Virus record (IMG/VR): IMGVR_UViG_3300017783_000133
Coordinates: 1-29,520 of that record
Reading direction: 5' to 3' (one strand)
Origin: a virus
Length of the DNA: 29,520 bases
Below are positions 4,577 to 20,520 of the stretch, piece after piece (position 1 is the first letter of the stretch; each line of letters opens with the position of its first letter). A program made the translations under genes and the position numbers. The notes under the pieces were generated by a model, which saw nothing but the letters and a program-made list of their open reading frames with translations, was not told the origin of the DNA and ran no database searches.

Positions 4577-4930
4577 ATGGCTTTTCGATCAGGACTTGAA
4601 GAAAGAGTTGCTGATCTTATGGTGGAGTTAGGAGTGAAGTATGAGTATGAATCCACTAAGGTTCCATATCAAATTCAACATAACTACACTCCTGATTTTC
4701 TTCTCCCTAACGGTATTTATCTTGAGTGCAAGGGGTACTGGGAAGCAGAGGATCGTCGTAAGATTAAGGCCGTCAAACAGCAACATCCAGAAATTGATTT
4801 AAGGATGGTCTTTCAAGCACCATATAACAAGATATCAAAGAAAAGTAAAACTACTTACGCCAAGTGGTGTGAGAACAACAACATTCTATGGACTAGCTTT
4901 GCAAACATACCAATCGACTGGTTCATTTGA
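4577..4930 (+). CDS. T7 gp3-like endonuclease I (Holliday junction resolvase)
   Basis: 117 aa; T7 gp3 is 149 aa. It cuts branched DNA, resolving replication intermediates and helping degrade host DNA. Clear matches: RSGLEERV near the N-terminus, YTPDFLLPNGI, ECKGYW, QHPEIDLRMVFQ and a C-terminal IPIDW. The catalytic residues of the family are all present: E8 (T7 E20), D40 (D55), E50 (E65) and K52 (K67). The start ATG follows the previous stop directly, and the 3' end overlaps the primase-helicase gene. Confidence 0.95.
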   Translation: MAFRSGLEERVADLMVELGVKYEYESTKVPYQIQHNYTPDFLLPNGIYLECKGYWEAEDRRKIKAVKQQHPEIDLRMVFQAPYNKISKKSKTTYAKWCENNNILWTSFANIPIDWFI

Positions 4931-15786: not shown

Positions 15787-16083
15787 ATGATACCGCTCCT
15801 ATCCACTATCGTATTAACAGCTTCATGGTATGGCGATTATTTCCATGGTCGCACCGCTGCTAATGGCTCCGTGTACAACATGTATGCCAGTACTGCAGCT
15901 CACAAGTCCCTCCCCTTTGGCACCCGGCTACGGGTTTGTTATAAGACTTGCGAGGTGGTGATGATCACAGACAGAGGACCGTACATTCCTGGACGGCACC
16001 TTGACCTATCTAAAGGAACAGCTACACGCATTGGCATGAAAGATGTTGGTGTAGCACCTGTTGAAGTTTATCGAATGAACTAG
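15787..16083 (+). CDS. RlpA-like double-psi beta-barrel protein
   Basis: 98 aa. The whole chain is a DPBB domain: ASWYGDYFHGRTAANG (residues 12-27), TAAHKSLPFGTRLRV, ITDRGPYIPGRHLDLSKGTATRIG. In bacteria RlpA is a septal lytic transglycosylase acting on denuded glycan; the Asp of DRGP and the Asp of HLDLS are conserved here. The first 11 residues are hydrophobic (MIPLLSTIVLTA), a possible short signal or anchor. A cell-wall role in lysis or entry is plausible given the C39-type peptidase and the membrane protein 1.5-2 kb downstream. Two Cys (VCYKTC) could form a disulfide in the periplasm. Start ATG directly follows the previous stop. Confidence 0.88.
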   Translation: MIPLLSTIVLTASWYGDYFHGRTAANGSVYNMYASTAAHKSLPFGTRLRVCYKTCEVVMITDRGPYIPGRHLDLSKGTATRIGMKDVGVAPVEVYRMN

Positions 16084-16122
16084 CTGAATAGAATAAGGAG
16101 GGTGCAATTCCCTCCACAGCTA
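16081..16122 (+). ncRNA. Minihelix with tRNA T-arm-like hairpin upstream of psbA
   Basis: TAGCTG (16081-16086, including the RlpA stop codon) pairs with CAGCTA (16117-16122). GGAGGG (16097-16102) pairs with CCCTCC (16110-16115), closing a 7-nt loop TGCAATT. Twelve base pairs stack in line, with 10 unpaired A-rich bases (16087-16096) on the 5' side where a tRNA would carry its D and anticodon arms. The loop keeps T54, C56, purine 57 and A58 of a T-loop. No CCA and no T-run follow. A second hairpin GGAC/GTCC lies at 16125-16138. Candidate roles: mRNA processing or stability element, or a structured psbA leader such as the Rfam PhotoRC-II motif. A closely similar element precedes the capsid gene. 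Confidence 0.5.
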
Positions 16123-16187
16123 TTGGACAGCCAAGTCCTAAAAATGGTCTTACCTAATTGCTACAAAACAAATGCACTATTACTTTA

Positions 16188-18409: not shown

Positions 18410-18440
18410 ATTACCTTACGTTCAACCTTTAGGTCGCATG

Positions 18441-18470
18441 ATACATAGCTATGGAACGGGAGCTATGCAT
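18441..18470 (+). promoter_or_regulatory. Ten-base-pair hairpin between peptidase and small ORF
   Basis: ATACATAGCT (18441-18450) pairs with AGCTATGCAT (18461-18470), with one A-C mismatch and a 10-nt loop. It fills the gap 18410-18482 and argues that the following small gene starts at ATG 18483, after the hairpin, rather than further upstream. No T-run follows, so it is not a terminator. Confidence 0.45.
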
Positions 18471-18482
18471 AAGGTACTACTA

Positions 18483-18590
18483 ATGTCCAACATCGTTACC
18501 CGCTACATCGCTAATCTAAAAAAGAAATCAGCAAACTATAAGGCTGATGCTCTTCGTTATCGCGGTGTAGTTTACAAACAGATTGGCTGA
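18483..18590 (+). CDS. Small basic protein with YRGVVY end (35 aa)
   Basis: ATG 18483 with AAGG 8-11 nt upstream; in-frame upstream starts at 18439 and 18465 exist but lie within or before a hairpin. The product MSNIVTRYIANLKKKSANYK is continued by ADALRYRGVVYKQIG. The RYRGVVY end recalls the YRGxxY motif of small cyanobacterial DUF4278 proteins, a tentative link. The stop codon lies within the 5' strand of the T-arm-like element 18581-18623. Confidence 0.5.
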   Translation: MSNIVTRYIANLKKKSANYKADALRYRGVVYKQIG

Positions 18591-18623
18591 TGGTGTAGGG
18601 GAGGTTCGATTCCTTCCCCAGTC
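18581..18623 (+). ncRNA. Minihelix with perfect tRNA T-loop upstream of capsid gene
   Basis: GATTG (18581-18585) pairs with CAGTC (18619-18623) including one G-T pair. GGGGAGG (18598-18604) pairs with CCTTCCC (18612-18618), including one G-T pair, and closes the loop TTCGATT, an exact T-loop (T54, T55, C56, G57, A58). The two stems give 12 base pairs, the number in a tRNA acceptor plus T-stem, with 12 unpaired bases (18586-18597) in place of the D and anticodon arms. A full tRNA cannot be drawn: no matching 5' acceptor strand is found 60-75 bases upstream. TTTT follows at 18624, so a weak terminator is the alternative. Confidence 0.5.
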
Positions 18624-18748
18624 TTTTAGCTTTGGCCCGTACGCGGACACCCTTAGCTGAACCGGTTCGTGAGGTTAACACGAAACAAATATACAATTTA
18701 ATACTTCTGACGTCAGAGGAATAGCAAAACTACAACCTCTTTAAAACA
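18624..18748 (+). promoter_or_regulatory. Structured leader of the major capsid gene
   Basis: A 125-base non-coding stretch. It holds a palindrome GAACCGGTTC (18659-18668), a hairpin TTCGTG/CACGAA (18666-18671/18679-18684, 7-nt loop) and a 12-base perfect palindrome TCTGACGTCAGA (18706-18717). AGAGG at about 18715-18719 can pair with CCTCT shortly before the ATG. A CGCGGACACCCTTAG segment (18642-18656) shares 9 of 15 bases with the phage Syn5 RNA polymerase promoter ATTGGGCACCCGTAA, too weak to claim a promoter. High expression of the capsid gene makes a phage promoter in this interval likely. Confidence 0.5.
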
Positions 18749-19816
18749 ATGACTGCTCCTAATGTAGGAACGGCTGTTAATAATACACGGCCTACTCCTT
18801 TCGGTTCGATTAACTCGAGCCCTCAACTAGCCCTGTCTCAGGGTTATCAAGACTCTGCCGCTACTGGCAAATATGCTCTCTATCTGAAACTGTTTAGTGG
18901 AGAGATGTTCAAAGCTTATGAGTCTAACTGCATCGCTAAAGGTACTATTCAGAACCGTACTCTCCGTAATGGTAAGAGTATGCAGTTCATCTTTACCGGT
19001 CGTATGCAAGCGGCTTACCACACTCCTGGTACTCCAATTCTTGGTGGTGGTGATCCCCCAGTGGCAGAGAAGACCATCATCATGGATGACCTGCTGATTA
19101 GTTCAGCATTCATTTATGACCTTGATGAGACTCTTGCTCATTACTCACTTCGTTCAGAGATCTCCAAAAAGATTGGACATGCTCTGGCTGAAGCTTATGA
19201 CAAGAAAGTCTTCCGTACTATTGCAAAGGCTGCGCGTGAAGCACATCCAGTGACTGCTGCACCAGGCCCTGAGCCAGGTGGTTCTGTCATCCGTTTGGGT
19301 GCTAACAATCAGTACAATGCTCAATCCTTAGTCGATTCATTCTTTGAAGCGGCCAGTATTTTGGATGAAAAAAATGTACCCCGTGATGGACGTTGTGCCA
19401 TCCTGTCTCCACGTCAGTACTACGCACTCGTATCGCAAGTAGATTCAAATATTCTCAACAGAGATTTTGGAAATACTCAGGGTAACCTGAACTCCGGAGA
19501 AGGTCTATATGAGATCGCTGGTATTTCTATCAAGCGTTCTAACAACCTCCCATTCATGTTGCAAGGCTCCAACGCTGGATCCGTTGCTCGTGTTGATGGT
19601 GAAAACAATGACTACTCTGGTGACTTCCGTACTCACGCTGGTCTGATTTATCAGAAAGATTGTGCTGGTGTTGTTGAAGGTATCGGTCCCTCTGTCCAGA
19701 CTACTGGTGCAGATGTTAAGACCATGTACCAAGGTGACATCATTGTCGGACGCCTCGCTATGGGTGTCGGTACTTTGAACCCTGCTTGTGCCATTGAGCT
19801 ACAAGCTGCTGCTTAA
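18749..19816 (+). CDS. Major capsid protein (T7 gp10-like)
   Basis: 355 aa (T7 gp10A 345 aa), HK97 fold expected. Recognised by order and by segments such as YALYLKLFSGEMFKAYES, SMQFIFTGRMQAAYHTPGTPI (start of the long helix region), MDDLLISSAFIYDLDETLAHY, and CAILSPRQYYALV, all standard in T7-like capsid proteins. It forms the icosahedral shell. A structured leader of 125 bases precedes it; there is no good ribosome binding site directly before the ATG. No evidence for a gp10B-type frameshift: the stop TAA is followed within 12 bases by a separate gene. Confidence 0.97.
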   Translation: MTAPNVGTAVNNTRPTPFGSINSSPQLALSQGYQDSAATGKYALYLKLFSGEMFKAYESNCIAKGTIQNRTLRNGKSMQFIFTGRMQAAYHTPGTPILGGGDPPVAEKTIIMDDLLISSAFIYDLDETLAHYSLRSEISKKIGHALAEAYDKKVFRTIAKAAREAHPVTAAPGPEPGGSVIRLGANNQYNAQSLVDSFFEAASILDEKNVPRDGRCAILSPRQYYALVSQVDSNILNRDFGNTQGNLNSGEGLYEIAGISIKRSNNLPFMLQGSNAGSVARVDGENNDYSGDFRTHAGLIYQKDCAGVVEGIGPSVQTTGADVKTMYQGDIIVGRLAMGVGTLNPACAIELQAAA

Positions 19817-20488: not shown

Positions 20489-20494
20489 TATATG

Positions 20495-20520
20495 GGAGGG
20501 CTTCGGCTCTCCTTTTTTTT
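20495..20520 (+). terminator. Strong Rho-independent terminator after the capsid unit
   Basis: GGAGGGC (20495-20501) pairs with GCTCTCC (20506-20512) around a TTCG tetraloop, with one G-T pair, followed by eight T residues (20513-20520). This matches the place of the T7 terminator T-phi just after the capsid gene and would set a higher level of capsid mRNA than of tail mRNA. A phage polymerase should respond to this structure, too. Confidence 0.92.

Follow-up and report, generated by a model that had tools for sequence, protein, structure and literature searches.

The question raised by this locus is what a partial tRNA-like fold is doing in front of the major capsid protein gene of a cyanobacterial virus, with a similar fold standing before psbA. 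The stretch of DNA analysed, here called the window, is 29,520 nucleotides long (virus record IMGVR_UViG_3300017783_000133, positions 1 to 29,520). According to the original prediction, the two elements share a function and may be tRNA mimics rather than tRNA debris. Both views are well supported by the comparisons presented here, the mimicry by covariation in the helices and in the elbow, and the shared function by covariation of the helices and of the D-/T-loop positions together with the fixed position of the element in cultured and uncultured cyanopodoviruses.

Structure and surroundings of the elements in the window

A scan of the 29.5-kb window for hairpins that have a T-loop and an acceptor-like helix identified exactly two elements, the capsid copy and, as predicted, a copy of the same kind before psbA (Table 1). 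Most of what had been described for the capsid copy was recovered, namely a 7-bp T-arm with the exact loop TTCGATT, its closure by an acceptor-like helix to give a total stack of 12 bp, and the presence of the upstream gene's TGA stop codon (18588-18590) within the 5′ part of the element, where it overlaps the acceptor strand GGCTG. The division into helices of 5 and 7 bp also stands, but the 5′ strand of the former had been misplaced at GATTG (18581-18585); relatives pair GGCTG, which shifts the strand by 4 nt and reduces the unpaired linker from the 12 nt first proposed to 8 nt. The acceptor pairing is kept in relatives as GGCTG/CAGCC (L001), GACTG/CAGTC (L008), GCCGT/ACGGC (L035) and AGCAG/CTGCT (L143). 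In the psbA copy, a 1-nt bulge (A16116) lies between a 6-bp acceptor helix and a 6-bp T-arm, and this psbA-side element is also found in approximately 20 other loci.

Table 1. Coordinates of the two minihelices and of neighbouring features in the window.
Feature	Position	Strand	Remarks
Minihelix before psbA: TAGCTG / 10-nt linker AATAGAATAA / GGAGGG-TGCAATT-CCCTCC / bulged A / CAGCTA	16081..16122	+	
Leader hairpin of psbA message, GGAC-AGCCAA-GTCC	16124..16137	+	RNAfold -5.2 kcal/mol
Glutamine-II riboswitch aptamer, upstream of small ORF	18416..18467	+	Rfam RF01704, 44 bits, E 9e-08
Small upstream ORF, 35 aa (...YRGVVYKQIG)	18483..18590	+	stop codon in capsid-side element
Acceptor-like helix, 5′ strand GGCTG	18585..18589	+	pairs with 18619-18623; covariation in alignment A4
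8-nt linker ATGGTGTA in place of D, anticodon and variable arms	18590..18597	+	GG resembles that of the D-loop
T-arm, 7-bp stem GGGGAGG/CCTTCCC	18598..18618	+	loop TTCGATT at 18605-18611
Acceptor-like helix, 3′ strand CAGTC	18619..18623	+	cut predicted directly 3′; CCA not encoded
Leader hairpin of capsid message, TTTAGCT...CCG-TACG-CGG...AGCTGAA, directly downstream of element	18624..18663	+	RNAfold -11.4 kcal/mol
Major capsid protein gene, downstream of element	18749..19816	+	tblastn against annotated cyanophage capsids, 78% identity to DSL-LC07

A single sequence cannot decide whether such an element is real, since its folding energy is not above chance for either the capsid copy (z -0.66 and -0.88) or the psbA copy (z -1.9) and model R1, from which the window was left out, matches both copies by their T-arms only (E 0.06 and 0.12). 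Thermodynamic stability, not being significant, was dropped as sole evidence for the element, and it is the comparative evidence that establishes it. ARAGORN found no tRNA in the window, and with its 8-nt linker and no match to the Rfam tRNA family at E≤10 the capsid element does not qualify as a canonical tRNA gene. No family in Rfam 15 reaches threshold for the element, Glutamine-II being the sole nearby match, and when the intergenic DNA was compared with named phages by similarity, only the riboswitch stretch of S-RIP1 and chance T-arm matches were returned. A structured RNA is known near cyanophage psbA, PhotoRC-II (Rfam RF01717) (PMC2864571), from which the psbA element is set apart by having no Rfam match even at E 10.

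The small ORF behind the riboswitch of the window is of the YRGVxY type and ends in the minihelix. On the other side, the leader hairpin of the capsid message has the same CC-UACG-GG core in relatives, with RNAalifold recovering only 3 of its pairs because the outer stem was misaligned by MAFFT, and the psbA leader hairpin occurs in relatives as AGAC/GTCT and AGTC/GACT. A leader hairpin with a GCC-UACG-GGAUACC core comes after the element in all of the classes described below, and a similar GCCGGAUGCGUCCGACAACC motif precedes the capsid gene of Roseobacter phage CRP-227 (L404, approximately 430-500), which has no minihelix. The stretch ATTGGC...GCCCGTA behind the element was considered as a Syn5-type promoter and rejected, as its spacing is variable and it folds as the leader hairpin; the actual two Syn5 promoters are at 4929 and 44797. 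Behind the capsid gene of the window is a canonical terminator with a stem, a TTCG loop and a T8 run (20494-20513), in contrast to the minihelix. The window also has a 42-nt 5′ part of a tRNA-Leu gene (GCGGATGTGGCGGAATTGGTAGACGCG...) at 861-902, flanked by the integrase and RNA polymerase genes as it is in P-SSP7, and this is likely attP.

Conservation and covariation of the minihelix

Loci were fetched with the capsid protein of the window (80), of P-SSP7 (80) and of Syn5 (50), together with those of named phages, giving 195 upstream regions that are 230 nt or longer. The minihelix (class A) is present in 128 of the 195, 80-190 nt before the capsid gene, and a second type of hairpin (class B, described below) in 44. 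For class A, the controls yielded 0.2 with dinucleotide shuffling, 0 when the reverse strand was scanned and 3 among 2233 windows located 3′ of the capsid start; for class B all three were 0 (0/2233 for the last). In one scoring, 24 regions were recorded as having neither, many of these being visibly near misses.

Among named phages, class A precedes the capsid gene in P-SSP7, P-SSP2, Syn5, S-RIP1, S-TIP28, S-TIP37, S-CBP42, S-SBP1 and P-GSP1, with weaker forms in P60 and S-CBP2, while class B takes this place in S-CBP1, S-CBP4, S-SRP01, DSL-LC07, SS120-1, 9515-10a, NATL2A-133 and S-RIP2, and a tRNA in NATL1A-7. All 10 further cultured cyanopodophages checked have the minihelix or an equivalent, and the element is absent from the non-cyanobacterial relatives Roseobacter phage CRP-227 and Desulfovibrio phage ProddE. 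Nearly all T7-like marine cyanobacterial viruses checked thus have a minihelix, a whole tRNA or a class B hairpin before the coat-protein gene. In L057 (511-1031) the minihelix stands approximately 490 nt before the capsid gene, with an apparent homing-endonuclease ORF inserted between the two. Extra minihelices were also noted in other intergenic regions, mostly near early genes (L089:603-647, L090:1277-1323 and, on the minus strand, L085:23725-23770; phages P-SSP7, S-CBP2 and NATL1A-7).

A search of cyanophage genomes with a model of the two copies had been suggested originally; the search was made with R1, which is not derived from these copies and was built from alignment A2, consisting of members with longer linkers and leaving out the window. 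It matches the sense strand only, upstream of capsid and psbA genes. Since R1 reaches the window copies by their T-arms alone, the 8-nt-linker subclass was aligned separately (A4).

In 88 distinct class A copies the helix is mostly 11-12 bp (range 10-13), split as 5+6, 6+6, 5+7, 6+5 and in other ways, and the loop is TTCRANY or TGCRANY with few exceptions, closed by a G-C pair in 88 of 88. All four Watson-Crick types occur at acceptor pairs 7-11. The alignment of 35 distinct R1 matches contains 60 double-change cells against 11.9 after shuffling (0/500), although this alignment was fitted to the structure, and for this reason greater weight is given to the raw copies and to the independent alignment A4. 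In the latter (11 distinct sequences) 100% of cells are paired and there are 35 double changes where shuffling gives 12.9 (0/500), with changes on both sides in 8 of the 12 pairs and a covariation score unreached by any shuffle. Linkers of at least 12 nt form a small hairpin (≥4 bp) in 77% of cases compared with 38% in shuffles.

In tRNA the D-loop and T-loop are joined by the contacts G18-55 and G19-C56, and the counterparts of these positions vary together in the minihelix. Where the loop is TTC (T55), the linker has GG in 44/44 elements, and GG is invariant in the 8-nt-linker subclass; with TGC loops (G55) the linker letters are AG, and AAGC occurs in 24 of 44 G55 elements and in 0 of 44 with T55. 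Both sites are switched jointly in a near-identical pair, L103 (GGTTAGGCGATC...TTCAAGT) and L109 (GGTTAAGCGATC...TGCAAGT). Residue 55 undergoes no fewer than 23 changes on the capsid tree, and approximately 14 independent pairs are concordant and 0 discordant (median p 0.0001), these pairs being less independent than they appear in that recombination may move whole modules. Because the covarying positions are those which touch in tRNA, the simplest reading is that the D-loop/T-loop contact has been retained. Along with the stack of approximately 12 bp and the T-loop letters, this contact, as deduced from covariation, gives the element the hallmarks of a tRNA-like fold. Judged by its sequence variation, the element is almost certainly a conserved phage RNA that mimics tRNA, with an acceptor/T-arm stack of approximately 12 bp and a reduced D-loop docking on the T-loop, and without an anticodon arm.

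Whole tRNAs and class B hairpins in the same slot

The minihelix is interchanged with whole tRNAs. In 354 phage loci (2.83 Mb) ARAGORN identified 6 tRNAs, every one of them in the slot of the minihelix, a count that does not represent a genome-wide rate as the set is centred on capsid genes. These are tRNA-Gly (NATL1A-7, L364), tRNA-Asp (L015, L054) and tRNA-Trp (L285) before the capsid gene and tRNA-Pro (L035) before psbA, and each runs straight into the usual leader. The isoacceptors are of four kinds and the position is constant, as would be expected if any tRNA-like fold serves there. In five of the six, the upstream ORF stops approximately 30-60 nt before the tRNA with a separate hairpin between, whereas the stop codon is inside the element in 65 of the 82 class A elements that have an ORF ending close by. 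An extra small hairpin just upstream of the tRNA was seen in L015, L035, L054, L085 and L364, that of L035 being terminator-like with a T-run. A complete tRNA at this place in relatives had been named beforehand as the mark of a decayed tRNA; although six exist, decay is nonetheless unsupported and the mimic is not refuted, because the minihelices keep compensatory changes and far outnumber the tRNAs.

Class B occupies the slot in approximately a quarter of capsid loci. It consists of a covarying stem closed on a 15-nt loop, CACCTCAGAGTCGGA (e.g., L082:5849, L081:5854, L028:134). Its five closing pairs are formed in every one of 77 distinct copies and also vary, and the evidence lies in their variation and not in the pairing, as at least 5 pairs were required for inclusion. 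In viral contigs, 106 of 120 class B places precede a capsid gene, and the hairpin is found before psbA in L028 and L066. Bacterial genomes gave 51 scattered matches, mostly chance-like. A single-cell contig of Prochlorococcus sp. AG-363-G03 (L246) has class B beside a phage capsid gene and psbA, and is probably that of an infecting phage. A third class B site, with a different leader hairpin (ATTCCCTTGACC...GGTCAAGGAAT) and another gene, was observed in L340 (114-144) and at the ends of L328 and L364. No Rfam family matched class B in the loci searched. The GGCACCUCNNNGUCGG of class B resembles the peptidyl-transferase strand of 23S rRNA, at about E. coli 2494-2509, possibly by chance. As class B fills the same slot and is not obviously tRNA-like, the shared function of the slot may be something other than cleavage by tRNA enzymes, and class B is a second new RNA family there that calls for explanation.

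A putative processing site and its alternatives

In phage T7, RNase III sites between genes act as structured cut sites in the transcript, and these provide a working analogy, although the phage element has a different fold and presumably a different enzyme. Syn5 RNA polymerase has only two promoters in the genome and approximately 37 kb is taken as transcribed from one (PMC3950665); both are far from the capsid gene, and a long transcript is therefore the probable source of the capsid and psbA messages. A processing site is the best-supported role for the element, and on balance it would seem to act in the manner of a t-element, with host tRNA-maturation nucleases cutting at it in the polycistronic late transcript. 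It would mark off the capsid gene from the genes upstream, with the second copy before psbA. The main cut, by RNase Z, would fall 3′ of the minihelix, so that the upstream message would end in this structure with its stop codon kept and the capsid message would start a few nucleotides before its leader hairpin; in some members there may also be a 5′ cut by RNase P. Whole tRNAs in the slot would be excised by two-sided cutting and minihelices cut on one side only, a difference suggested by the stop codon lying inside the minihelix but before the tRNA with its extra hairpin.

Both enzymes are present in cyanobacteria (PMC10989914), acceptor/T-arm hairpins suffice as RNase P substrates (PMC11143913), and most picocyanobacterial elongator tRNAs have no encoded CCA, their 3′ ends requiring RNase Z (PMC5143459), which is paralleled by the element, with CCA within 5 nt of the 3′ end in 0 of 88 copies. 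Against an RNase P step, a 5′ cut would remove the stop codon of the upstream ORF, and against the cutting model in general, a promoter may lie between the element and the capsid gene. Minimal substrates are also often poorly cut, and RNase Z of some organisms disfavours long 5′ leaders.

Among known systems, the closest in fold and boundary position are plant mitochondrial t-elements which, like mitochondrial tRNA punctuation, place tRNA-like folds or tRNAs at gene boundaries of polycistronic transcripts (PMC8003010). The phage element shares this placement at mRNA boundaries, lying where the preceding ORF ends and before capsid or psbA, but differs in occurring family-wide in bacterial DNA phages with elbow covariation and a defined fold that lacks the anticodon arm, its cleavage being presumed. 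Model RNase P substrates such as AT1 likewise have acceptor stem, T-stem and T-loop in one stack (PMC11143913), but the phage element is natural, is situated within mRNA, has a D-loop-like linker of mostly 8-19 nt and has no 3′ RCCA. No description of the element was found in the open literature, subscription journals being outside the search. The tRNA-like domain of tmRNA also combines an acceptor, a T-arm and a reduced D region with no anticodon arm; the phage element differs in having no tag ORF, CCA or conserved G3-U70, and no tmRNA was called.

An uncut boundary or stability element, the compact fold of which blocks exonucleases or shields the leader such that any stable hairpin, tRNA or class B would serve, appears unlikely. 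The sharing of the slot by three different folds agrees with it, as does retention of the upstream stop codon by the minihelix in the manner of a 3′ cap for that message; however, it leaves unexplained the strict T-loop letters, the G-C closing pair (88/88), the constant 11-12 bp and the covariation of residue 55 with the linker, and host enzymes would excise a whole tRNA. Rather more doubtful is a translation-gated switch, in which ribosomes on the small ORF unfold the 5′ strand and capsid expression answers to translation or glutamine. The frequent presence of the stop codon inside the element (65/82) and a Glutamine-II riboswitch upstream, found in the window and also in L006, L033, L045 and L069, speak for such a switch, but many members have neither riboswitch nor small ORF (in the Syn5 group the scaffold gene precedes) and the stop-codon overlap may merely reflect compact genomes.

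The T-arm and elbow are the part bound by several tRNA-binding factors, and the element could be a substrate of one of these (aminoacyl-tRNA synthetase, EF-Tu, CCA-adding enzyme or TruB), as are plant-virus tRNA-like structures. This is improbable, as the encoded, aminoacylatable CCA end of such structures is found in 0/88 copies and there is no conserved synthetase identity, given the free variation of acceptor pairs 7-11. A transcription terminator or pause site is very improbable: the window element is listed as terminator-like in a scan by virtue of its AGTCTTTTAG tail, but conservation of just a hairpin with a T-run, named originally as the sign of a terminator, was not what was found, only 7 of 88 copies having five or more T among the 8 nt that follow; a canonical T8 terminator also stands behind the capsid gene, and tRNAs replace the element in some loci. 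A decayed tRNA gene or attachment site, suggested by the complete tRNAs of some relatives and by the phage's integrase, can scarcely be maintained, being refuted as the main account by compensatory changes at variable pairs and, for attachment, by the likely attP beside the integrase gene, far from the element.

Returning to cleavage by host enzymes, a wider system of tRNA punctuation may tentatively be envisaged, in which interchangeable cassettes (mimic, whole tRNA or class B) delimit the capsid and psbA messages and serve as cleavage sites for RNA-processing enzymes of the host. Translation and nitrogen status could then be coupled to folding and cleavage, since the small ORF terminates within the mimic and may itself be controlled by a glutamine riboswitch.

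The cut-site reading offers a testable answer to how separate, abundant capsid and psbA messages could arise despite one or two phage-polymerase promoters per approximately 37 kb. The element, with its many natural variants, would also constitute a minimal tRNA-elbow substrate for studies of RNase P and RNase Z. Signals for cutting of a tRNA-like kind have so far been described mainly in organelles; if the proposed role is true, tRNA punctuation would extend from organelles to DNA phages, and gene expression in marine viruses of very high abundance would be linked to host tRNA maturation.
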